Below the pieces are notes generated by a model that did not search any database, was not told where the DNA came from, and saw only the letters and a program-made list of their open reading frames with translations. Both the position numbers and the translations under genes were made by a program. Shown piece after piece: positions 6,522-23,804 of a DNA stretch of 32,258 nt (the first letter of the stretch is position 1; each line of letters begins with the position of its first letter). Source of the stretch: Elusimicrobiota bacterium (GTDB lineage Bacteria > Elusimicrobiota > Elusimicrobia > Elusimicrobiales > Elusimicrobiaceae); the NCBI GenBank assembly GCA_012523635.1, contig JAAYTX010000038.1, forward strand, positions 1 to 32,258. Reading direction: 5' to 3'.

Positions 6522-7175
6522 ATGAAACCAGTAATCACAACGCAGGAAGCCGCTAAGAAAATTAAAGACGGAGCCTCCATCATGGTCGGAGGCTTCATGT
6601 GCTGCGGCCAGCCGCTTTCGCTGCTGGACGCCATACTGGAAGCATGCACCAAAAACCTCACCGTCATCACCAACGACGCAGGCTTCCCGGATAAAGGCAT
6701 AGGCAAGCTCATCGTCGCGGGCCGCGTGTCCAAGCTGATAGCTTCGCACATCGGCCTGAACCCCGTGGCGGGGCAGAAAATGAACTCCGGCGAAATGAAA
6801 GTGGAGCTGGTGCCCCAGGGCACGCTGGCCGAGCGCATACGCAGCGCCGGCGCCGGCCTGGGCGGCGTGCTTACCCCTACAGGTATAGGAACCAAGGTGG
6901 AGGAATGCAAGCAGAAGGTCATGATAGACGACCAGGAATTCCTGCTTGAGCTTCCGCTCAAAGCCGATTTCGCTCTGCTGAAAGCCACTACCTGCGACAG
7001 GCAGGGCAACTGCTTTCTCGCCAAATCCGAAAAGAACTTCAACACCGTGATGGCCATGGCCGCCGACGAAGTGATCGCCGAGGCTGAAAACGTGGTCGAA
7101 ATCGGCCAACTGGACCAGGACAGGGTCACCATCCCCGGCGTCTTCGTCCAGACTATAGCGGAGGCCCGCAAATGA
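6522..7175 (+). CDS. Acetoacetate CoA-transferase subunit A (AtoD-like)
   Basis: A 217-residue subunit of a family I CoA-transferase (AtoD/ScoA type). The N-terminal glycine motif IMVGGFMCCGQP (about 20-31) and the TPTGIGTKVEE segment fit the alpha subunit, which helps form the CoA site with the beta subunit. The likely reaction is transfer of CoA from acetyl- or butyryl-CoA to the acetoacetate released by Kce. A GGAG lies upstream of the ATG. The last four bases overlap the subunit B start (ATGA), matching stoichiometric translation of the two halves. The acyl donor cannot be read from the sequence. Confidence 0.88.
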   Translation: MKPVITTQEAAKKIKDGASIMVGGFMCCGQPLSLLDAILEACTKNLTVITNDAGFPDKGIGKLIVAGRVSKLIASHIGLNPVAGQKMNSGEMKVELVPQGTLAERIRSAGAGLGGVLTPTGIGTKVEECKQKVMIDDQEFLLELPLKADFALLKATTCDRQGNCFLAKSEKNFNTVMAMAADEVIAEAENVVEIGQLDQDRVTIPGVFVQTIAEARK

Positions 7176-7831
7176 ACGACGAACAGAAACGCGAACGCAT
7201 TGCAAAACGCATAGCGCTGGAACTGCCTGAAAACGGCCTGGTAAACCTCGGCATAGGCATGCCCACCCTTGTGGCCAACTACCTGCCTGACGGCAAGAAC
7301 ATCTTCTTCCACTCCGAAAACGGCTACATCGGCCTTGGACCGGCGCCCGAGCAGGGGCGTGAAGACTGGAGCATAGTCAACGCCGGAGGAAAACCCGTCA
7401 GCATAGTACCCGGCGGCTGCTTCTTCGACTCGGCCACCTCATTCGCCATCATACGCGGCGGGCACGTGGACGCCACGGTGCTGGGCGCCCTAGAAGTCGA
7501 TGAAAAGGGCAACCTGGCCAATTACATGATTCCCGGCAAGATGGTGCCCGGAATGGGCGGCGCGATGGACCTGGTGGTGGGTGCAAAAAAGGTCATCATC
7601 GCCATGGAGCACGTCAACAAGAAAGGCGAGCCCAAAATCCTCAAGCAGTGCCGCCTGCCGCTGACGGCCAAAAACCAGGTGGACATCGTAGTCACCGAGA
7701 TGGCTTTCATCCGCGTCTCGCACGAAGGCCTGGTGCTGGAGGAAATAGGAGAGGGCTTCACGGTGGAGCAGGTGCAGGCCGCCACCGAGGCTAAACTCGT
7801 GGTGGCGCACACGCTGGGGAAATTCTCATGA
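7172..7831 (+). CDS. Acetoacetate CoA-transferase subunit B (AtoA-like)
   Basis: A 219-residue beta subunit of the same family I CoA-transferase. It carries the catalytic glutamate in the hallmark SENG motif (Glu49), the GIGMPT segment just before it, and GGAMDLVVGAKKVI in mid-protein. The glutamate forms the glutamyl-CoA thioester during ping-pong transfer. ATGA overlaps tie it to subunit A upstream and to kce downstream. Its function in the pathway is activation of free acetoacetate so that thiolase can cleave it. Butyrate-acetoacetate and acetate-acetoacetate transferases cannot be separated by eye. Confidence 0.9.
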   Translation: MNDEQKRERIAKRIALELPENGLVNLGIGMPTLVANYLPDGKNIFFHSENGYIGLGPAPEQGREDWSIVNAGGKPVSIVPGGCFFDSATSFAIIRGGHVDATVLGALEVDEKGNLANYMIPGKMVPGMGGAMDLVVGAKKVIIAMEHVNKKGEPKILKQCRLPLTAKNQVDIVVTEMAFIRVSHEGLVLEEIGEGFTVEQVQAATEAKLVVAHTLGKFS

Positions 7832-8649
7832 ACGGACAGGTAATAATCACCTGCGCCATAACCGGCGCCGAAACAACCCGCGAGCACAACCCGGCCCTGC
7901 CGATGACGCCGGAAGAAATAGCGTCCGCCGCGGCGGATGCGCGGCGCGCCGGAGCGGCGGTGCTGCACCTGCACGTGCGCGATGAAAAGGGCGCGCCCAC
8001 GCAGTCGCTTGACGTCTTCAAGAAGACCATAGGCCTTATACGCAAGAAGACCGACATAGTGGTGGAAGTGACCACTGGCGGCGCGGTGGGAATGACGCCC
8101 GAGGAACGCCTGCAGCCGGTCACGCTGGAGCCGGAAATGGCCTCGCTTGACTGCGGCACGGTGAATTTCGGCGACGAATACATAGTCAACACCCTGCCCA
8201 CCATGCGCGAGTTCGCCTCAGCCATGAAAAAGCACAGGGTGCGCCCGACGCTGGAATGCTTCGACCTCTCTCATATCTACGCTTCCCATGTCCTCATTAA
8301 AGAAGGGCTGATAGCCCCGCCCTTTCATTACGGCCTGGTGCTGAATGTGCCGGGCGGCGTGCGCTACGAACCCGAGGTGCTGGACTTCTTCGTGCGCAAG
8401 CTCCCGCAGGGCAGCTTCTGGACGGCCATGGGCATAGGCCGCGCCTCGCTGCCGGTGGTGTACAACACGCTGGCCATGGGCGGCTGCATCAGAGTGGGTT
8501 TTGAGGATAATGTGTACTACTCAAAAGGGGTGCTGGCAAAAAGCAACGCCGAGCTGGTTGAACGCGCCGCCAGGCTGGGCAGGGAGGCCGGGCTCACGCC
8601 CGCGTCACCCTCGGACGTAAGAAAATTACTGCAATTAAGGGAGGCTTGA
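7828..8649 (+). CDS. kce: 3-keto-5-aminohexanoate cleavage enzyme
   Basis: A 273-residue BKACE-family (beta-keto acid cleavage) TIM-barrel protein of typical length. The zinc site is visible as HLHVRD (His47, His49) and a downstream acidic ligand in GFEDN (Glu226), with further family motifs VTTGG (about 81-85) and ECFD. Kce condenses 5-amino-3-oxohexanoate with acetyl-CoA and cleaves it to acetoacetate plus 3-aminobutyryl-CoA. The BKACE family has many substrates, but the position between CoA-transferase and kdd genes makes the lysine assignment strong. Its ATG overlaps the upstream stop (ATGA). Confidence 0.92.
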   Translation: MNGQVIITCAITGAETTREHNPALPMTPEEIASAAADARRAGAAVLHLHVRDEKGAPTQSLDVFKKTIGLIRKKTDIVVEVTTGGAVGMTPEERLQPVTLEPEMASLDCGTVNFGDEYIVNTLPTMREFASAMKKHRVRPTLECFDLSHIYASHVLIKEGLIAPPFHYGLVLNVPGGVRYEPEVLDFFVRKLPQGSFWTAMGIGRASLPVVYNTLAMGGCIRVGFEDNVYYSKGVLAKSNAELVERAARLGREAGLTPASPSDVRKLLQLREA

Positions 8650-8652
8650 AAC

Positions 8653-9711
8653 ATGACAGCTAAAATTTGCGGCAAGGGAAATCCTTTCGGCAGCCACCGC
8701 GTGCTTGAACCCAAGGGCTCTCTGCCCCAGCCGGCCATGAAGGTCAACAACTGCATGGACCGCATCTGGGACAACGAGACTCTCGTAGACGTGGACACGC
8801 TCAACATAGACTCGGCCAGCTTCACCCAGATAAAAACCGAGACCGGCGGCGACATAGAGAAAATCAAGCAGCGCATCCTCCAGATAGTCAACGAACGCGG
8901 CAAGATGCAGAACCCGGTCACCGGCTCTGGCGGCATGTTCATAGGCACGGTGGCGCAGGTGGGCCCGGCGCTGAAAGGCAAGTCCAAGCTCAAGCCCGGC
9001 GACAAGATAGCCAGCCTGGTCTCCCTGTCCCTCACCCCCCTTAAAATCGAAAAAATACTGCAGGTCCGCAAGGACGTGGACCAGGTCAGGATAAAGGGCA
9101 AGGCCATACTGTTCGAAAGCGGCATCTACGCCAAGCTTCCGTCCGACATGCCGGCTTCGCTGGCGCTGGCGGTGCTGGACGTGGCCGGCGCCCCCGCGCA
9201 GACGGCCAAGCTGGTGCGCCCCGGCGACACCGTGGTCATCATAGGCGCGGCTGGCAAATCCGGCGTGCTGTGCTCCTACGAGGCGCGCAAGCGCGCTGGA
9301 GTCAGCGGCCGCGTCATCGGCCTCACCAGCTCCGACAACGGCTATAAAGCCCTGAAGGAATACGGCTTCTGCCACGACAACGTGAAGGTGAGCGCCACCG
9401 ATGCCCTGGCCTGCTACGAAGCCGTGCACAAGCTCACCGGCGGCAAGCTGGCCGACCTGGTCATCAACTGCGTCAACGTCCCGGGCACGGAGATGAGCTC
9501 CATCATGATGTGCCGCGACGACGGCACGGTCTACTTCTTCACAATGGCCACCTCCTTCACCAAGGCCGCGCTGGGGGCCGAGGGCATAGGCAAGGACGTG
9601 AACATGATAATCGGCAACGGCTACACCAAGGACCATGCCGAAATCACAATCAACCTGCTGCGCGAATCGCCGCAGATACGGAAGATCTACCAGAAGAAAT
9701 ACGCCGCATAA
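8653..9711 (+). CDS. kdd: L-erythro-3,5-diaminohexanoate dehydrogenase
   Basis: A 352-residue dehydrogenase with a medium-chain-type Rossmann region: VVIIGAAGKSG at about 194-204 is the nucleotide loop. The N-terminus contains the family-like GNPFGSHRVLEPKG segment (about 9-22). Kdd oxidatively deaminates 3,5-diaminohexanoate to 5-amino-3-oxohexanoate with reduction of NAD(P)+ and release of ammonia. The gene begins three bases after the kce stop; its ribosome site (GGGAGG) lies in the end of kce. Direct adjacency to kce and kamA is the usual order in lysine-fermenting bacteria. Confidence 0.92.
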   Translation: MTAKICGKGNPFGSHRVLEPKGSLPQPAMKVNNCMDRIWDNETLVDVDTLNIDSASFTQIKTETGGDIEKIKQRILQIVNERGKMQNPVTGSGGMFIGTVAQVGPALKGKSKLKPGDKIASLVSLSLTPLKIEKILQVRKDVDQVRIKGKAILFESGIYAKLPSDMPASLALAVLDVAGAPAQTAKLVRPGDTVVIIGAAGKSGVLCSYEARKRAGVSGRVIGLTSSDNGYKALKEYGFCHDNVKVSATDALACYEAVHKLTGGKLADLVINCVNVPGTEMSSIMMCRDDGTVYFFTMATSFTKAALGAEGIGKDVNMIIGNGYTKDHAEITINLLRESPQIRKIYQKKYAA

Positions 9712-9721
9712 GAGGCTAAAA

Positions 9722-10969
9722 ATGCAATATCCGACAGTCGACTATAAAAAAGTCCCGCTGTTCGCCAAAGTCAGCCAGTCAGACTGGAACGACTGGCGCT
9801 GGCAGCTCTCGCACGTAATCAAGGACATCCCCACGCTGGAACGCGTGATAAGCCTTGACGCCAGCGAGAAGAACGACCTCAAGCGCTGCCTGGCCAAGTT
9901 CCGCATGGCCATAACGCCTTACTACGCCGCGCTGATGGACGCCAGGGACAGGCAGTGCCCGGTGCGCCTGCAGGCCGTGCCGTCCATAGAGGAACTGCGC
10001 AACGACCCAGACGACCTCGACGACCCGCTGCACGAGGACGTGGACTCGCCGGTGCCGGGCCTCACCCACCGCTACCCTGACAGGGTGCTGCTGCTTGTCA
10101 CCAACATCTGCTCCATGAACTGCCGCCACTGCACTCGGCGGCGCATGGTGGGGTTCGAGGACACGCCGCTGTCTAAAGCCTGCCTGGACAAGGCCGTGAA
10201 ATACATCTCCGGCAACAAAGCGGTGCGCGACGTGCTGATTTCCGGCGGAGACCCGCTCACCCTCTCCGACGATCACCTGGAATCCATACTCCAGCGCCTG
10301 CGCGCCATCAAGCACGTGGAAATCATCCGCATAGGCACCCGCGTGCCGGTGGTGATGCCCATGCGCGTGACCGAGAAGCTTGCGGCGATGCTCCGCAAGT
10401 ACCACCCGCTGTATATCAACACGCACTTCAACCACTCAAAGGAAATGACCGCCGAGGCCAGGCTGGCCTGCGCCAGGCTAGCCGACGCGGGAATCCCGCT
10501 GGGCAACCAGTCGGTGCTGCTGCGGGGAGTGAACGACAGCCAGTCCACCATGAAAAAGCTGGTGCACAACCTGCTCATGGCCCGGGTGAAGCCCTACTAC
10601 ATCTACCAGTGCGACCTCTCAAAAGGCATATCGCATTTCCGCACCTCGGTGTCCAAGGGCATAGAGATAGTGGAAAGCCTGCGCGGCCACACCACCGGCA
10701 TGGCGGTGCCCACCTACGTGGTGGACGCGCCAGGCGGCGGCGGCAAGATACCGGTGATGCCGTCCTACATGATATCGCAGTCGGACAAAAAGATAGTCCT
10801 GCGCAACTACGAGGGCGGTATAACCTCGTACTCACTGCCGCAGGTAGTCTCGCGCCCGTCAAACAGCGACACGGAGTACGCATCGCATGAAGGCATAGCG
10901 GCGCTGCTCAACGGCGACAAGCGCACCCTGGAGCCGGCGGACCTCAAGCGCCGCAAACGCGGGCACTGA
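9722..10969 (+). CDS. kamA: L-lysine 2,3-aminomutase
   Basis: A 415-residue radical-SAM, PLP-dependent mutase that converts L-lysine to L-beta-lysine, the first step of this pathway. The [4Fe-4S] cysteines are Cys130, Cys134 and Cys137 in CSMNCRHC. The PLP lysine is Lys342 in DAPGGGGKIPV, and Asp298 and Asp335 match the substrate-amine-binding aspartates of the clostridial enzyme by constant offset. Length equals the clostridial enzyme, unlike the shorter EpmB relatives. The ATG at 9722 with upstream AGAGG was chosen; a reading frame opening at 9635 would run through the end of kdd. It is the last gene of the operon. Confidence 0.95.
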   Translation: MQYPTVDYKKVPLFAKVSQSDWNDWRWQLSHVIKDIPTLERVISLDASEKNDLKRCLAKFRMAITPYYAALMDARDRQCPVRLQAVPSIEELRNDPDDLDDPLHEDVDSPVPGLTHRYPDRVLLLVTNICSMNCRHCTRRRMVGFEDTPLSKACLDKAVKYISGNKAVRDVLISGGDPLTLSDDHLESILQRLRAIKHVEIIRIGTRVPVVMPMRVTEKLAAMLRKYHPLYINTHFNHSKEMTAEARLACARLADAGIPLGNQSVLLRGVNDSQSTMKKLVHNLLMARVKPYYIYQCDLSKGISHFRTSVSKGIEIVESLRGHTTGMAVPTYVVDAPGGGGKIPVMPSYMISQSDKKIVLRNYEGGITSYSLPQVVSRPSNSDTEYASHEGIAALLNGDKRTLEPADLKRRKRGH

Positions 10970-10986
10970 AGCCAGCCTTGCAAACG

Positions 10987-11015
10987 AAAACCCCCGCCAC
11001 GCAGCGGGGGTTTTT
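10987..11015. terminator. Bidirectional intrinsic terminator, kamA / yaeQ-like gene
   Basis: CCCCCGC (10991-10997) pairs with GCGGGGG (11004-11010) around six bases and is followed by five T. On the other strand the stem is followed by four T. It lies between two convergent genes and can end both transcripts. Confidence 0.9.
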
Positions 11016-11033
11016 CATTCATAATAAAAAAAA

Positions 11034-11558
11034 TCAATACGACTGGAAATCCACAGCAAAAACCTGCCCGTTCAGCACCAGGCTCATGGAACGCTCGGTG
11101 GTCTCCCCTATCGCGTCGTTGGTTTCGCCCACCACGCGCCGCCAGCGCTCGAACTCCTCTTTGGGCCAGGCCAGTATCTCCACCCTGTCGTGCTTCTTGC
11201 TTTCCGCCGCCAGCATCCTGCGGGTGGCCTGCGCGTCTTCGGGCGATTCCCGCAGCACCACTATACGCGCCCCCGGCACTTTCCGCACGACTTTCACCAG
11301 TTTGTTAAGCGAGGTATTGCCACACTCGCACCAGAGGCTCACCGCTCCGGACTCGTCAAGAGCCAGCAGGTCCGGCGTGAAGGGGCAATTTGTGAGGGCC
11401 GGATGATTTACCGTGGCCTCCAATAGCAGTTCCCTGTCCCAGAACAACAGCACGGCAGCCAGCTTCAGGGCCGAATGCTCCGGCGTCTCGTCATGACGCG
11501 GCACTATCAGGAGGTTTTTCCGTCCGCCGTTTACGTTGAGGTCGCACCGCAGGTACAT
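11034..11558 (-). CDS. YaeQ-like protein
   Basis: A 174-residue protein that I recognise as YaeQ-like. It shows an RHxETxEH-type segment (about 21-28), then an acidic core TPDLLALDESGAVSLWCECG (61-80) followed by SLNKLVK. YaeQ proteins have a PD-(D/E)xK-like nuclease fold, and Asp63, Glu78 and Lys86 are candidates for the corresponding positions. Cellular function is not established; nuclease activity for this family is an inference from fold. It converges on kamA and stands alone. A TGCTAGGAT extended -10 box lies six bases before the ATG, so the message may start at or near the start codon, although an AGGA lies in the same stretch and could be a weak ribosome site if transcription begins further upstream. 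Confidence 0.68.
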   Translation of the reverse strand: MYLRCDLNVNGGRKNLLIVPRHDETPEHSALKLAAVLLFWDRELLLEATVNHPALTNCPFTPDLLALDESGAVSLWCECGNTSLNKLVKVVRKVPGARIVVLRESPEDAQATRRMLAAESKKHDRVEILAWPKEEFERWRRVVGETNDAIGETTERSMSLVLNGQVFAVDFQSY

Positions 11559-12869: not shown

Positions 12870-14255
12870 TTACACTCCGGCCGCCTGGTAAAGGCGGGCA
12901 GCCGCTTCGTTGGCCTTGGCCGCCACCTTCTCCTCGTCCACCGTGGCCAGCCTGGAATCTTCCACGACCAGTTTGCCGTTCACAAGAACGTGTTTGGCCC
13001 TGTGGCTGGAGCCGCAGAAGACCAGCGCGGCCACAGGGTCGCTCATCGAACCGGCATATTCGAGCGCGCTCACGTCGAATATGGAGATATCGGCCGCCTT
13101 TCCCGGCTCAAGCGAGGCTATATCGTCACGGCCAAGCAGGGCGGCGCTGCCGCGCGTGGCCAGCCACAGCGCGTCGCGCGCCGACATGGAGCCCACGCCG
13201 GCCTTAACGCGCGAGACCAGCATGGCCAGCCGCACCTCGCCGAGCATATCCGAGGAATCGTTGGATGCCGAGCCGTCCACGGCAAGGCCTACCGGCACTT
13301 TCTTGTCCAAAAACATCCTTATCGGCGCTATGCCGGAACCAAGGCGCAGATTGGAACCGGGGCAGTGAGCCACGCCCGTGCCTGTGGCGGCCATCCTTTC
13401 GGCTTCGGACTCGTTGATGTAGACGCAGTGCGCGAACCAGCTTCTCCCGCCCTCAAGCCAGCCCACCGAATCCATATAATCCAGCGGGCGCTTGCCGTGC
13501 ATCTGCAGGCAGAATTCCTCTTCGTCAATGGTTTCAGCCACATGCGTATGCAGCTTCAAATCCCATTTTTTGGCCAGCACCGCCGTCTGCTTCAGCAGTT
13601 CGGTGGTCACCGAGAACGGGGAGCACGGCGCCAGCACAAGCCTCGTCATCGCGAACTTGGCCTTGTCGTGATAGGCCTTCATCAGGCGCTCGCTGTCCTT
13701 AAGTATTTCGTCCTCGGTCTGCACCACTTCGTCGGGCGGAAGCCCGCCGTTGGACTTGCCGCGCGACATCGAGCCCCGGCACGGGTGGAAACGCGCGCCG
13801 ATTTTCAGCGCGGCCTCAATCTGCGTGTCGATGAAGCCTCCAGAGCAGGCCTTCGGGAAAAGGTAAAGGTGGTCGCTGCTGGTGGTGCAGCCGGTCAGCA
13901 GCAGCTCGCCAAGCCCTAGCTGGGTGCTGGCATACACGGCCTCGGGCGTCATATGCTTCCACACCTCATAAAGGTAAACCAGCCAGTCGAATAGCTTGCT
14001 GTTCTGCGCGCCGGGAAGGTTGCGGGTCAGCGTCTGATAGAGGTGGTGGTGCGTGTTCACAAAGCCAGGCAGCACCACGCAGTTTTTGGCGTTAATGACG
14101 CGCGCGGCCTTCACCTTGAGGCCCTGCCCCACTTGCTTAATTTCTTTCCCTTCTATATAAATGTCGGCATCCTTGAGTTCCGTCCGTTTGTCGTCCATGA
14201 CGGCGATGCGCAGGGCGTTTTTTATAAGCACAGTCTCGTTGCTTGCTGTTTTCAT
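12870..14255 (-). CDS. Amidohydrolase, probable 8-oxoguanine deaminase / AtzB-TrzN-like
   Basis: A 461-residue metal-dependent deaminase of the amidohydrolase superfamily. The metal site is visible as VNTHHHLYQTLTR (His69, His71), LHTHVAET (His236, His238), WFAHCVYIN (His276) and VDGSASNDSSDM (Asp327). The wording of these blocks matches 8-oxoguanine deaminases and the related hydroxydechloroatrazine hydrolases more than guanine or S-adenosylhomocysteine deaminases. It would act in the cytosol in purine salvage or clearance of oxidised guanine. GGAGG lies just upstream of the ATG. It follows the YfhO-like gene by 33 bases in the same direction, and the two do not look functionally linked. Confidence 0.78.
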   Translation of the reverse strand: MKTASNETVLIKNALRIAVMDDKRTELKDADIYIEGKEIKQVGQGLKVKAARVINAKNCVVLPGFVNTHHHLYQTLTRNLPGAQNSKLFDWLVYLYEVWKHMTPEAVYASTQLGLGELLLTGCTTSSDHLYLFPKACSGGFIDTQIEAALKIGARFHPCRGSMSRGKSNGGLPPDEVVQTEDEILKDSERLMKAYHDKAKFAMTRLVLAPCSPFSVTTELLKQTAVLAKKWDLKLHTHVAETIDEEEFCLQMHGKRPLDYMDSVGWLEGGRSWFAHCVYINESEAERMAATGTGVAHCPGSNLRLGSGIAPIRMFLDKKVPVGLAVDGSASNDSSDMLGEVRLAMLVSRVKAGVGSMSARDALWLATRGSAALLGRDDIASLEPGKAADISIFDVSALEYAGSMSDPVAALVFCGSSHRAKHVLVNGKLVVEDSRLATVDEEKVAAKANEAAARLYQAAGV

Positions 14256-19758: not shown

Positions 19759-20529
19759 TCAGTATCCGGACAGGATTTTGAATCGCCGCACATCCGCTGC
19801 CGAACACGAAACCGCAGCGTTCGCCTTTCCGGACCTTACCGACAAGGCATAACCGGCGCCATCCAGCCTGCGGCAGCGCGCCCCGAAACCAAATAGCGCT
19901 TCCACGGCAACCGTGCAATCATTACCCCCGCGTACAGCCAGGGCCTTCCCGGCCATTGCGGGGGCCTGCCCGGTTTCGCGGATATATTTGAAAACCAGAG
20001 CCCCGGCCGCAAGATGTCCGGGCCTCAAATCCAGGAAATGGTTTTGCAGCAGGCGCATCAGTGTCCGCGCCAGGTTTTCGTCTGAAAGCAGCGCATATTT
20101 GCCGGAAAAATCCGGCGCGGCCGCGCACGGCACGCTGTCTATTCCAGGGGAATAGGACTTTATATCCGCCACCGGCGTGCCGTCTATCATGTCCAGCGCG
20201 GACAGGTACAGCCTCCTGCCCCGCACCTCAAGCAGGCGCGCGCAGGTCAGTGCCAGCGGGTTGGGCCTGTCCGGAGAACGCATTGCGAACACGCCGCGTT
20301 CCCGCAGCGAAGCCGAAATCTTCCTGGGCCGGGCCCGCAGGATGCTCCTGTCGGCGCGGTGCAGCCAGCCTAAAATCCATACATGGCTTTGTTCCCGCAG
20401 TCCCAGCATGGCTTTGGCATAGCGCGGCAGCACTTCCACCACGGCCGGGCTTCCGCCAAGGCCCATGCCGCCGCGCGACTTGACTCCGCTGCGCACATAA
20501 CCTACCGGTTTTATCATGGCGGCTTTCAT
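19759..20529 (-). CDS. TrmO-family (TsaA/YaeB) tRNA methyltransferase with FmdE-like C-terminal domain
   Basis: A 256-residue protein. Residues 1-145 match the TrmO beta-barrel family, which N6-methylates t6A37 of tRNA using SAM: IKPVGYVRS at the start, then HVWILGWLHRAD, MRSPDRPNPLALTCARLL and IDGTPVADIKSYSPGID. About 105 extra residues follow. Their pattern HFLDLRPGHLAAGALV then GNDCTVAVEALFGFG recalls FmdE (formylmethanofuran dehydrogenase subunit E-like) domains, which have a GH-G block and a C-x-VDA-x-x-x-x-TG block. The barrel call is firm; the FmdE call is a pattern judgement. The ATG directly follows the T-component stop and has AGGAG upstream, so it is the last gene of the ECF-type run. 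Confidence 0.75.
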   Translation of the reverse strand: MKAAMIKPVGYVRSGVKSRGGMGLGGSPAVVEVLPRYAKAMLGLREQSHVWILGWLHRADRSILRARPRKISASLRERGVFAMRSPDRPNPLALTCARLLEVRGRRLYLSALDMIDGTPVADIKSYSPGIDSVPCAAAPDFSGKYALLSDENLARTLMRLLQNHFLDLRPGHLAAGALVFKYIRETGQAPAMAGKALAVRGGNDCTVAVEALFGFGARCRRLDGAGYALSVRSGKANAAVSCSAADVRRFKILSGY

Positions 20530-21108
20530 TTAAACTCCTATGTCCCTTATAAAAAACAGCAGCGCTATCTGCTCAGCCTTCATCGCGGTGTTTCTCAGCA
20601 CCGCAGCCATGAAAACAGGCAGATCCGACAATAATCTTATCCCGCCTCGACCCGCACTGTAAAGAAGCCAGGTCTCGGCCAGGGCGCGCTTCACCATTCC
20701 GGAGGAGGCGGTAACCAAGGCTATCCGCAACCCGGTATTCCTTCCGCCGCAGCGTTCGGCGAACTCCACTATCTCGCGCAGGGAAAAGTTTCTGGAGACA
20801 AAAGCCGCCAGCACCGTGAAAACATACGCGTTCCCCAGTATCCGCATGCCCGAAGCAAACTGCGCCGCCGAATAGGGGCGGCCCAGCAGCAAAAATCCGT
20901 CCCCGGGAATGAAAAAGGGCATCAACAGCACGAAGAGCAGCAGCGGAATCCAGAATCTCAAAGAACCGAACTCGCGCAGAGCCCGCCAATCCCGCAAAGC
21001 CACCACAAGCGCGGCCCCCGCCAGCAGCAACGCGCCCGTATAACCGCCGCCCAGAATCAGCGAAGCGGCGAACAGTGCCAGCGCTGTCCAGAACACCTTA
21101 GCTTTCAT
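20530..21108 (-). CDS. ECF-type transporter T component (EcfT/CbiQ-like), short
   Basis: A 192-residue membrane protein with about five hydrophobic segments. Near the end SAGRGGIRLL and AEQIALLFFIRDIGV stand where T components have their two coupling-helix motifs (A-R-G/S type), the second changed to IRD. Usual T proteins are about 250 residues; this one stops immediately after the second motif. In ECF transporters this subunit links the paired ATPases to the substrate-binding S protein. The call depends mainly on the neighbouring S-like and double-ATPase genes, whose starts and stops overlap. The ATG is 11 bases inside the upstream gene. Confidence 0.65.
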   Translation of the reverse strand: MKAKVFWTALALFAASLILGGGYTGALLLAGAALVVALRDWRALREFGSLRFWIPLLLFVLLMPFFIPGDGFLLLGRPYSAAQFASGMRILGNAYVFTVLAAFVSRNFSLREIVEFAERCGGRNTGLRIALVTASSGMVKRALAETWLLYSAGRGGIRLLSDLPVFMAAVLRNTAMKAEQIALLFFIRDIGV

Positions 21109-21682
21109 ATTTTCCCAGCTGTTTGGCGACTTTAATGGTAAACAGACCCGCCGCAGCCCCGATAAGCAAATGTATTCCTATCCAGACCAGCACTATATAG
21201 CGCCACAGGTTCTCACCGAGGCCGAAGAAATCCTGGATGCTTTTAATCATGGCCATGTATGAGGCGAATATCCCCTGCCCGTAAACCACCCAGTTGAAAA
21301 TAAAAAAATGCGGTATCCCCTCGAGACAGCATAAAACGCAGGCCAGCAGCAGCGACCACCTGCGCGTCCCAAACAGGGACAGGGCCAGCTCCACCATCAT
21401 GCCTTCTATCAGTATCCCGGCTACAGGCCCCAGCTTGAACCCTCCTATTGAAATAAGCTTCACGCACAGCGCGGCCAGGCCGGTGGCCATTGTAGCGCCG
21501 ATGCGCGGGGTATAAAAACGCTCGATGCACATGACGGAAGCCCCGAAGCCGGCCATCAGCGCCCCGCGAAACGGGAAATGCACCATATGCAGGTAGCTGC
21601 CAAGGAAAGCTTCCGCCGCGCCCCAGAAGACGCCGAACAAAGTGGTGAATACCAGGAATCGTATCTTCTCACTGTTTCTCAT
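21098..21682 (-). CDS. Probable ECF transporter S component
   Basis: A 194-residue integral membrane protein with about six hydrophobic segments, including FLVFTTLFGVFWGAAEAFLG at the N-terminus and a glycine-rich helix near GILIEGMMVELALSLFG. Size, helix count and the position between the ATPase and the T component fit an S (substrate-binding) protein. I do not recognise it as BioY, ThiT, RibU, FolT, QueT or another named S family, so the substrate is unknown. The ATG at 21682 has GGAGAGGAC upstream and lies 14 bases inside the ATPase gene. A TTG at 21697 was not chosen. Confidence 0.6.
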   Translation of the reverse strand: MRNSEKIRFLVFTTLFGVFWGAAEAFLGSYLHMVHFPFRGALMAGFGASVMCIERFYTPRIGATMATGLAALCVKLISIGGFKLGPVAGILIEGMMVELALSLFGTRRWSLLLACVLCCLEGIPHFFIFNWVVYGQGIFASYMAMIKSIQDFFGLGENLWRYIVLVWIGIHLLIGAAAGLFTIKVAKQLGKYES

Positions 21683-22982
21683 GAACGTCCTCTCCAAGTT
21701 TAAGCAGGTCGCGGCATAAGGCCCTTACCAGCGGCTCGGTATGGGAAATGAAAATCGCGGCCCCGCCGTCCGCGCAATGGCGCGACAGCAGCGCGGCGCA
21801 GGCGGCAAGCCCCTGCGCGTCCACCGCGGAAAGGGACTCGTCCAGCACCAGTATTTTCGCGCCGCTGGCTATGGCGCACAAAAGCTGTGCCTTCTGCGCC
21901 TGTCCCCAACTCAACTGCGCTATCTCCAGATGCCCGCTCCCGCCAAGACCGATGCTCTCCATAACTGCGGACAGGTCTCCTCCGTACTCCGGGCAAATGC
22001 TGGCGGCCAGGTTTTCGCCCACAGTTCTGTAAAGCAGATTGTTATATGGATTATTGAGAACAAGCCGTATGTGTCCCCGCAGGGCCTTCACATCCGCCGG
22101 GGCGCCGAGCAGTCGCAATTTCCCTTCAAAACCGGGGTCCAGCCCCGCCAGTATGCGGGCCAGCGTCGTTTTTCCGCAGCCGTTTCGCCCGCACACTCCC
22201 AGTATGCCTCCGGCCTTCAACGAGAAAGATACACCCGAAAAAACACTTTGCCCGTTTTTGCTGCATTCAAGCCCTTCAGCCGAAAGCAAAATCTCGGCTG
22301 ACGAAAGCTGGCGTTCCACGGTAAAAGACGCATAGAAATCAGAGGGCATGGCATCGCACTGCTTCAGGGCTCCGTTCTCCAGCATCAGCCACCTGTCCAC
22401 CAGGGGGGCGAGCTGGCCCAGTTCATGCCCGAAAATCAGCACGCTGGCGCCGGCGGCCTTCAAGCGCCGCACCCGCTTCGCCAGAAGGGCTGCGTTTCCG
22501 GCATCCAGAAAAGCGTTGGGCTCGTCCAGCACAGTGACCTGGCTTTTAGAGCAGGCCAGCGCGCACGCCAGCACGAAATTCTGCTTTTCCCCGGAAGAAA
22601 GACTGTAAACCTTGCGCTCCAGCAAATGCCCGATGCCGCCGTCTGCAAAAGCCTCTTCGACGGAAGCAAAACGCGCCGACTGCGAGTATCTCAGGAAAAA
22701 GAGCATTTCCTCGCGCACGGAGTCGTTAAGCACCTGCGCATCCACGTTCTGCATCACATAAGCGTGGCGTGCCGAGGCGGATGATACGCTGCCCTCCATG
22801 TCGCCTCCGCCGAAGGCGGGCGACAGGCCTGCGATTATTGCGCCCAAAGTGCTTTTGCCAGCCCCGTTCTTGCCAAGCACAGCCACGCACTCGCCCGGGG
22901 ACATGGACAGGTCCAGCCCCTTCAGCACCGGCTTGCAAGCGCCTTTATAGCGGAAGCTCAGGCCGCGTATTTCAACAGACAT
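21669..22982 (-). CDS. Fused double ABC ATPase of an ECF-type transporter
   Basis: A 437-residue protein with two ABC nucleotide-binding domains in tandem. Domain 1 has Walker A GKNGAGKST (37-45), Q-loop MQN (about 77-79), signature LSSGE (128-132), Walker B VTVLDEP and a switch histidine in FGHE. Domain 2 has Walker A GRNGCGKTT (265-273), signature LSWGQ (357-361), Walker B ILVLDES and ISHTE. Domain 2 has Asn where the Q-loop glutamine is expected (VLNNP), so the two sites may be unequal. This matches the fused EcfA/EcfA' form used by solitary ECF transporters. The ATG lies 25 bases inside the upstream NTPase gene, with GAGG at suitable spacing. Confidence 0.85.
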   Translation of the reverse strand: MSVEIRGLSFRYKGACKPVLKGLDLSMSPGECVAVLGKNGAGKSTLGAIIAGLSPAFGGGDMEGSVSSASARHAYVMQNVDAQVLNDSVREEMLFFLRYSQSARFASVEEAFADGGIGHLLERKVYSLSSGEKQNFVLACALACSKSQVTVLDEPNAFLDAGNAALLAKRVRRLKAAGASVLIFGHELGQLAPLVDRWLMLENGALKQCDAMPSDFYASFTVERQLSSAEILLSAEGLECSKNGQSVFSGVSFSLKAGGILGVCGRNGCGKTTLARILAGLDPGFEGKLRLLGAPADVKALRGHIRLVLNNPYNNLLYRTVGENLAASICPEYGGDLSAVMESIGLGGSGHLEIAQLSWGQAQKAQLLCAIASGAKILVLDESLSAVDAQGLAACAALLSRHCADGGAAIFISHTEPLVRALCRDLLKLGEDVHEKQ

Positions 22983-23446
22983 CGCAAAGCGTCCTCAACG
23001 CTGTGTTCATCCAAATCAATGACTTTATACACACCAACGCCTATCATGCCGGCAGCTTGTTCCAGCAACTGCCGCCGGACCGTCATGAATATAAACTTGG
23101 GACCTGCCTTGGCCGCCGCCGCAAGCGCGTGGGAAAATCCGCCGCTGGCAGCCTCAAGCGGGCCGAACTCGTCCACGCACAGCACTCTGCGCCGCCTGTT
23201 GCGGATTATAAGCGACGACGCATATGCGAAACCTTCCGGCGAAGGCACCGGCCCCTTCGCGGTCAGCCTTACCAAAAGCTCGCGCCTTCCGCCCCGCAGG
23301 CTGGCGGCATAATAGCGCGTTTTGACTCCTCCGATGAATTCAGCCGGGGACAGCACTCCCCCGCAATCCGGCAGTCCGGCGCAGACGCGGCGCAAAAGTT
23401 CAGTCTTGCCCGAGTTCCGGGCCCCGGTTATCAGCACCAGCCGCAT
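22958..23446 (-). CDS. THEP1 / DUF2478-like nucleoside-triphosphatase
   Basis: A 162-residue P-loop NTPase: GARNSGKT at residues 8-15 and Walker B VLCVDEFGPLEAASGGF with Asp92-Glu93, the DE-G-x-x-E pattern of the THEP1 group. VRRQLLE about 30 residues later supplies the arginine block of this group. THEP1 proteins hydrolyse NTPs in vitro with unclear role, and the related DUF2478 members occur in molybdate-transport operons. Here it overlaps the ECF ATPase gene by 25 bases and the upstream release-factor-like gene by 47. ATG 23446 was chosen because the P-loop must sit near the N-terminus; the reading frame extends upstream without coding signal. Confidence 0.7.
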   Translation of the reverse strand: MRLVLITGARNSGKTELLRRVCAGLPDCGGVLSPAEFIGGVKTRYYAASLRGGRRELLVRLTAKGPVPSPEGFAYASSLIIRNRRRRVLCVDEFGPLEAASGGFSHALAAAAKAGPKFIFMTVRRQLLEQAAGMIGVGVYKVIDLDEHSVEDALRCLLKYAA

Positions 23447-23804
23447 CAGTCCTCTCCTGGGACGCACGAGAACGCCCCTTTCTTTTCCGTATCCTGTCCC
23501 GTTCAGCCAGGCGCGCGGAGGTTTGCGGAGAAACCAGCATCTCCACCCTGTCCGCCAGTTCGCGCAAGGCGAGAAATCTGTTAAGGGAACGCTTCCTCTC
23601 GCGCTGGCAACGCACCACAATCCCGTAACGGGGGTAGCGCAGATGCACGCAATTGCTTGTTTTGTTTATCTTCTGCCCCCCTTTGCCGCCACCGCGCGCG
23701 AAGTTCTCCTCCACCTCGGCCAGATTGATGCCCAGGCGCGTTATGCGCTCCCTCAGTTCAAGCAGTTTGGCGGGCCGGATATCCGGGCATTCCCTGAATT
23801 CCAT
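23400..23804 (-). CDS. Small release-factor-like protein with GGQ domain
   Basis: A 134-residue protein with a class I release-factor domain: RGGGKGGQKINKTSNCVHL, with the Gly-Gly-Gln catalytic motif at 42-44. There is no codon-recognition domain, and the C-terminus is rich in arginine and lysine, a design seen in ribosome-rescue hydrolases (ArfB and C12orf65/MTRFR types). It should release peptides from stalled ribosomes; the exact subgroup is not decided here. It heads the leftward run that leads into the NTPase and ECF genes, overlapping the NTPase by 47 bases, and is probably not functionally related to them. A TAGAAT hexamer six bases before the ATG could give a leaderless message. Confidence 0.82.
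   Translation of the reverse strand: MEFRECPDIRPAKLLELRERITRLGINLAEVEENFARGGGKGGQKINKTSNCVHLRYPRYGIVVRCQRERKRSLNRFLALRELADRVEMLVSPQTSARLAERDRIRKRKGRSRASQERTDAAGADNRGPELGQD

Follow-up and report, generated by a model that had tools for sequence, protein, structure and literature searches.

A putative ECF-type transporter unit with a THEP1-like NTPase and a probable link to molybdenum enzymes in Elusimicrobiota

Gene content and organization of the locus

The window analysed here is a stretch of 32,258 nucleotides from an Elusimicrobiota bacterium (assembly GCA_012523635.1, contig JAAYTX010000038.1, positions 1 to 32,258). It contains a run of five genes, all on the minus strand within positions 19759-23446, which encode a THEP1-like nucleoside triphosphatase (NTPase), a double ATP-binding cassette (ABC) ATPase, a membrane protein assigned below as the S component of an energy-coupling factor (ECF) transporter, a short T component and a TrmO-family protein (Table 1). 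The NTPase and ABC genes overlap by 25 bases, the ABC and S genes by 14 and the S and T genes by 11, and the T stop codon directly abuts the ATG of the TrmO gene. These genes, coordinates and junctions had been given in a preliminary description of the window, and all proved correct when the open reading frames (ORFs) were read again. As the same gene order is found in distant genomes, the five-gene arrangement is not due to chance. Neither the window nor any of eight related loci gave an Rfam match in a riboswitch search.

Table 1. Coordinates of the five genes of the transporter run and of other genes discussed in the text
Sequence	Feature	Coordinates	Strand	Basis or remark
Window	THEP1-like NTPase, 162 aa	22958..23446	-	PF03266; P-loop GARNSGKT, Walker-B-like VDEFGPLE
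Window	Double ABC ATPase, 437 aa; A and A' of the ECF module in one chain	21669..22982	-	two ABC_tran domains
Window	S component (by predicted fold), new family, 194 aa, at least 6 membrane helices	21098..21682 (ATG at 21682)	-	model fold, conservation
Window	Short T component, 192 aa	20530..21108	-	weak CbiQ; alignment with T of relatives
Window	TrmO-family protein, 256 aa, C-terminal domain of ~115 residues	19759..20529	-	TIGR00104, TrmO_N
Window	RF-1-domain ORF	23400-23804	-	ArfB/PrfH-like
Window	8-oxoguanine deaminase	12870-14255	-	NF006055, 635 bits
L160 (window genome, contig C207)	Xanthine dehydrogenase large subunit	8987-11317		in-frame TAA at codon 440
L193	FmdE-family gene	7486-8067
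L194	FmdE-family gene	near 7040-7613
L195	FmdE-family gene	1661-2275
L196	FmdE-family gene	7285-7800
L189 (G048)	FmdE-like gene	near 1669		in-frame TGA

The S component

Profile searches assigned the S protein to no significant Pfam or NCBIfam family, vitamin families and CbiM/NikM included. Its best Pfam match, ABC_cobalt, has an E-value of 0.58 and 10.8 bits, below the cut-off of 25.2. The earlier statement that the protein belongs to no recognised family is thus borne out. An AlphaFold model built with 19 relatives has a pLDDT of 91, and its top PDB match is 5edl (probability 1.00, TM-score 0.63, E-value 0.018), the structure of YkoE, S component of the YkoEDC ECF transporter (Josts et al. 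2016, PMC5037267). RibU is also among its S-component fold matches (TM-score 0.54). Because an E-value of 0.018 is modest, the match to YkoE is taken as assignment to a fold class and not as membership of a vitamin family. By its predicted fold, the protein is an ECF S component of a new sequence family.

The T component, the ABC ATPase and fused forms

The match of the T protein to CbiQ in Pfam lies below threshold (E-value 0.08), and the protein aligns with both the separate T proteins and the fused T domains of relatives. It ends in a short helix, AExxAxxxxxR, that is missing from the fused T domains in the alignment and that, read by eye, may be a second coupling helix. The ABC protein contains two ABC_tran domains (E-value 5.6e-44), and its NCBIfam matches include ECF_ATPase and CbiO, both below their cut-offs. 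Two ATPase domains in one chain are a YkoD-like arrangement. S, T and an A-A' chain together are the layout of a dedicated ECF transporter, as the preliminary description had proposed.

The order NTPase-ABC-S-T recurs in Elusimicrobiota genomes G004, G037, G052, G048, G056, G059, G125 and G212; G332 and G169 have a T-NTPase fusion after ABC and S. Further relatives of S were collected from GTDB contigs, mainly of Bacteroidales (330 stretches confirmed, 80 kept). Most of these, like most other Elusimicrobiota carriers, have S fused to T, and the S-T protein is often also joined to the NTPase, giving a single protein of about 570 residues. None of 83 fused loci has an ECF-type ABC gene within eight genes; four have an ABC ORF of an unrelated type. 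In a quick tree, one split separates the ABC-linked from the fused S proteins, with support of 0.56 or 0.97 depending on which node is read. In relatives of order f2 (L022-L026, L171), the unit lies inside a conserved run cysE-cysK-Nudix-NTPase-ABC-S-T-anmK.

The THEP1-like NTPase

The NTPase matches NTPase_1 (PF03266) with an E-value of 8.8e-9 and 35.9 bits against a cut-off of 23.9. DUF2478 is a secondary match that exceeds its cut-off in one relative, and MobB matches weakly. Among relatives the NTPase is a separate gene, fused to T or fused to S-T, and in most of them it is adjacent to the transporter or part of it, not scattered elsewhere. The three kinds of fusion seen (S-T, T-NTPase and S-T-NTPase) provide direct evidence of joint action of S, T and the NTPase, so the proposal that NTPase and transporter form one functional unit holds. 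What sets the protein apart from the known THEP1, MobB and DUF2478 families is its pairing with, or fusion to, an ECF transporter; no earlier description of such an arrangement was found.

Neighbouring genes for molybdenum enzymes

The preliminary description saw two weak hints of molybdenum, the DUF2478 relatives of THEP1 that occur in molybdate operons and the name of FmdE, taken from a molybdenum/tungsten enzyme; the link is now far stronger, through neighbouring genes for molybdenum cofactor (Moco) and through co-occurrence with molybdenum hydroxylases. Neighbour names come from family searches on representatives, the remainder being named by eye. Across 73 fused loci the recurrent neighbours are MobA, TonB receptors, a molybdopterin oxidoreductase with iron-sulfur and NrfD partners, DUF364 and a ModE-like helix-turn-helix protein. 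In Bacteroidales loci, S accompanies MobA and an oxidoreductase of the PsrA/PhsA type, which carries bis-molybdopterin guanine dinucleotide (bis-MGD). At one of them, L100, the TonB receptor gene overlaps the S-T-NTPase gene by 4 bases, which in turn shares 1 base with the MobA gene; the oxidoreductase gene comes next. Elusimicrobiota loci L163, L165, L166 and L169 have xanthine dehydrogenase (XDH), XdhC or MocA near S. WtpA- or TupA-type transporter genes stand directly beside S in two cases: in G230, S follows MobB, WtpA, a permease and ATPase, MoeA, MoaA, MoaC, Mog and DUF364, and in G145 it is divergent from MOT1-TupABC-MoeA-MoaA-MoaC-MOSC-MogA and adjoins an aldehyde:ferredoxin-oxidoreductase-like gene. 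Those proteins of about 400 amino acids that had been grouped with the MobA neighbours turned out to be QueA, drawn in by a QueA-MobA fusion, so early counts of MobA neighbours were inflated.

The window's genome has three MoCoBD_1 genes in addition to MocA and XdhC. One of the three, the XDH large-subunit gene adjoining MocA and XdhC, is interrupted by a stop codon (Table 1) and is either a pseudogene or the product of a sequencing error; the other two (L161, L162) are intact.

Such neighbours might also mean that S imports a substrate of the hydroxylases, for example a purine, and not their cofactor. At L165, L166 and L172, S does lie in clusters for purine degradation (XDH, allantoinase, PuuD-like genes), and the window encodes an 8-oxoguanine deaminase. 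This explanation is nevertheless highly improbable, because the Bacteroidales loci concern bis-MGD-type enzymes instead; other carriers show Moco synthesis clusters and no purine genes, and ECF systems serve trace micronutrients. Nickel, suggested by NikR-like neighbours, was rejected as substrate, as it leaves MobA, MocA, XDH and the phyletic match unexplained.

Phyletic distribution of S, molybdenum hydroxylases and Moco synthesis

The distribution of S was surveyed in 341 Elusimicrobiota genomes, with MoCoBD_1 as marker of molybdenum hydroxylases. S was found in 62 of them (and also in many Bacteroidales), MoCoBD_1 in 118 and MoaC in 92. MoCoBD_1 is present in 60 of the 62 S genomes (Fisher p 6e-31 by genome); of the two others, one has a marginal S match (E-value 9e-4) and one is 62% complete. 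By genus, the furthest level to which phylogeny was corrected for, and with the marginal match dropped, all 23 S genera fall within the 41 MoCoBD_1 genera among 100 (p 8e-12). In the window's own family, MoCoBD_1 occurs only in the two genomes with S.

In many of these carriers, genes for making the cofactor went undetected. S and MoCoBD_1 occur without MoaC in 31 genomes; one of them is the window's genome, where MoaA and MoeA also gave no match. MoaA is found in 0 of 24 tested genomes of this class and in 12 of 12 MoaC-positive controls, and MoeA in 1 of 13 tested S carriers without MoaC, for which the MoeA found beside moaC in relatives is a partial positive control. In the genomes of L072, L090, L098 and L100, whose completeness is not known, MobA adjoins S-T and MoaC has no match. 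Absence of MoaE was dropped as a sign of auxotrophy, since MoaE also has no match in 24 of 27 MoaC-positive genomes (G133, G054, G038, G134, G044, G046 and others), of which all 12 tested have MoaA; the molybdopterin synthase of these organisms is either divergent or different.

These absences bear on the main rival explanation, namely that the unit is a new metal ECF transporter that feeds Moco synthesis with molybdate or tungstate, taken up either free or chelated, the chelate passing through a TonB receptor. ECF transporters for nickel and cobalt are established, S clusters with MoeA, MoaA, MoaC, ModE-like and MobA genes, and DUF364, annotated as putative heavy-metal chelation, lies directly upstream in 12 loci. 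Among the 31 hydroxylase carriers without MoaC, however, none of those tested has MoaA and almost none has MoeA; an imported metal would thus meet no known acceptor. MoaC-positive genomes, moreover, usually have their own PF13531-type binding protein near moaC (31 of 37; WtpA or TupA where checked). PF13531 matches in MoaC-negative carriers were not counted as molybdate-binding; the one in G059 looks like PstS in a pst operon. Plain molybdate or tungstate is therefore an unlikely substrate.

Import of another vitamin or cofactor, for instance thiamin-like or B12-related, with only an indirect association with molybdenum, is less likely still. The nearest fold, YkoE, is a thiamin-related S component, AnmK follows T in the relatives with the cysE-cysK-type run, and genes for B12-dependent lysine fermentation, identified by eye, lie elsewhere in the window. 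Against this, the match with molybdenum hydroxylases persists when counted by genus and is also seen within the window's own family, and Moco genes recur as neighbours over two phyla, which AnmK and the lysine genes do not.

Proposed function and comparison with known systems

The unit very probably serves molybdenum enzymes. Our favoured reading, to which we give a probability of about 0.5, is that it is an ECF-type importer of Moco (Mo-molybdopterin) or of a late molybdopterin precursor. What is observed is the gene order, the fold class, the fusions, the link to molybdenum enzymes by neighbourhood and phyletic distribution, and the lack of detected MoaA, MoaC or MoeA in many carriers; that the unit transports, in which direction and what, and how the NTPase and TrmO contribute, are inferred. 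The uptake of a metal, pterin or other cofactor precursor envisaged in the preliminary description is accordingly narrowed to Moco or molybdopterin as presumed substrate, and plain molybdate is disfavoured. Put forward more tentatively is a specific form of this reading, an importer dedicated to finished Moco or late molybdopterin for auxotrophs with molybdenum hydroxylases, together with a derived S-T-NTPase protein that works without ABC ATPases.

In such a pathway, a TonB-dependent receptor, where relatives have one, would bring the compound into the periplasm; the TonB partners suggest a large or chelated substrate. S would capture the compound, and T with the double ABC ATPase would drive its entry. 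The NTPase might aid release or hand-over, perhaps, as a guess, in the way of MobB-type GTPases. MocA or MobA would then add a nucleotide, and XdhC would load enzymes of the xanthine dehydrogenase type. Since MocA uses Mo-molybdopterin, the imported species, placed after MoeA and before MocA, would be Mo-molybdopterin.

Several points weigh against Moco import. MoaC is present in about half of the Elusimicrobiota S carriers, and in 35 of 50 other S carriers, so S does not serve auxotrophs only. Twelve genomes have MoCoBD_1 but neither MoaC nor S, most of them being less than 93% complete, and the surveyed genomes are draft metagenome-assembled genomes. MoaE is missing from most MoaC-positive relatives, so the molybdopterin pathway of the phylum is not fully understood, and some other route could replace MoaA, MoaC and MoeA. 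Finally, because Moco is oxygen-labile (PMC9793310, PMC9370521), anoxic habitats are the main setting in which its free uptake is plausible.

No described bacterial Moco transporter was found in the open-access literature, where some type 11 secretion system (T11SS) proteins have been suggested to serve cobalamin or molybdopterin uptake (PMC12282271). If Moco import is correct, it would account for genomes that encode molybdenum enzymes although Moco synthesis was not detected in them, would imply cofactor sharing in anoxic communities, and would assign an S-component family and its NTPase partner to Moco. The ABC-less fusion would raise the further question of what powers an ECF-type transporter that lacks the usual ATPases.

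Among known systems, YkoEDC resembles the unit in its S fold, in having a T of its own and in joining both ATPase domains in a single chain. Unlike YkoEDC, the unit includes an NTPase and often TrmO and stands in a context of molybdenum enzymes, not thiamin, and its S shows no sequence-family match. ModABC, WtpABC and TupABC would serve the same enzymes and have loci in common with S in G230 and G145, but they consist of a soluble binding protein and a classical permease, whereas the five genes include neither a periplasmic binding protein nor such a permease and encode S and T components instead; PF13531 has no match in the window's genome. CbiMNQO and NikMNQO resemble the unit in the weakly CbiQ-like T and in the implied metal-linked cofactor; their S components are of other families.

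The TrmO protein and other genes

The TrmO protein matches TrmO_N (E-value 6e-27, 94.6 bits against 26.8) and TIGR00104 (108.8 bits against a cut-off of 93.25), and the N-terminal part of its model matches TrmO structures 2nv4 and 7btz. A protein of this family would be expected to methylate N6-threonylcarbamoyladenosine (t6A) in tRNA. Unlike known TrmO, the protein is encoded within transporter operons in five genera (G000, G004, G212, G332, G169); these belong to four families, of which one lies outside the window's class. In three of the genera (window, G004, G212) it shares a C-terminal extension of about 115 residues unrelated to TrmO; a second role of the window protein is possible. As TrmO is missing from other S carriers, it is regarded as accessory: of the expected five-gene association, NTPase, ABC, S and T recur together, and TrmO is not a constant member.

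The fusion had been described as TrmO-FmdE-like. TrmO and a real extension are confirmed, but the FmdE part is not: the extension has no Pfam match and no PDB profile match, FmdE is not among the top 50 fold matches of the model, and hhalign against FmdE proteins of relatives gave a probability of 0.1%, with shallow profiles. FmdE (PF02663) has no match anywhere in the window's genome. Among 199 genomes, just 4 have FmdE-family genes that exceed the cut-off, and each of these carries the ABC-linked S system (Table 1); the genes of L193 and L194 lie alongside TonB receptors, a Fec/Btu-like ABC transporter and NikR. The FmdE-like gene of L189 has its in-frame TGA where relatives have Gly (TGCTFGKGNLIF), through error or recoding. 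A QueA gene is found just upstream of MobA, NTPase and S-T in Bacteroidales loci L043, L058, L104, L110, L115 and L118, with a QueA-MobA fusion in L115; QueA and TrmO are both S-adenosylmethionine-dependent tRNA-modifying families.

In the window, the RF-1-domain ORF, of which the preliminary description made no mention, overlaps the NTPase start by 47 bases; no curated equivalog exceeds its cut-off for this protein, and the gene is not at the corresponding place in G004. In G004, downstream of the same transporter unit, the homologue of the 8-oxoguanine deaminase adjoins MocA, XdhC and XDH.

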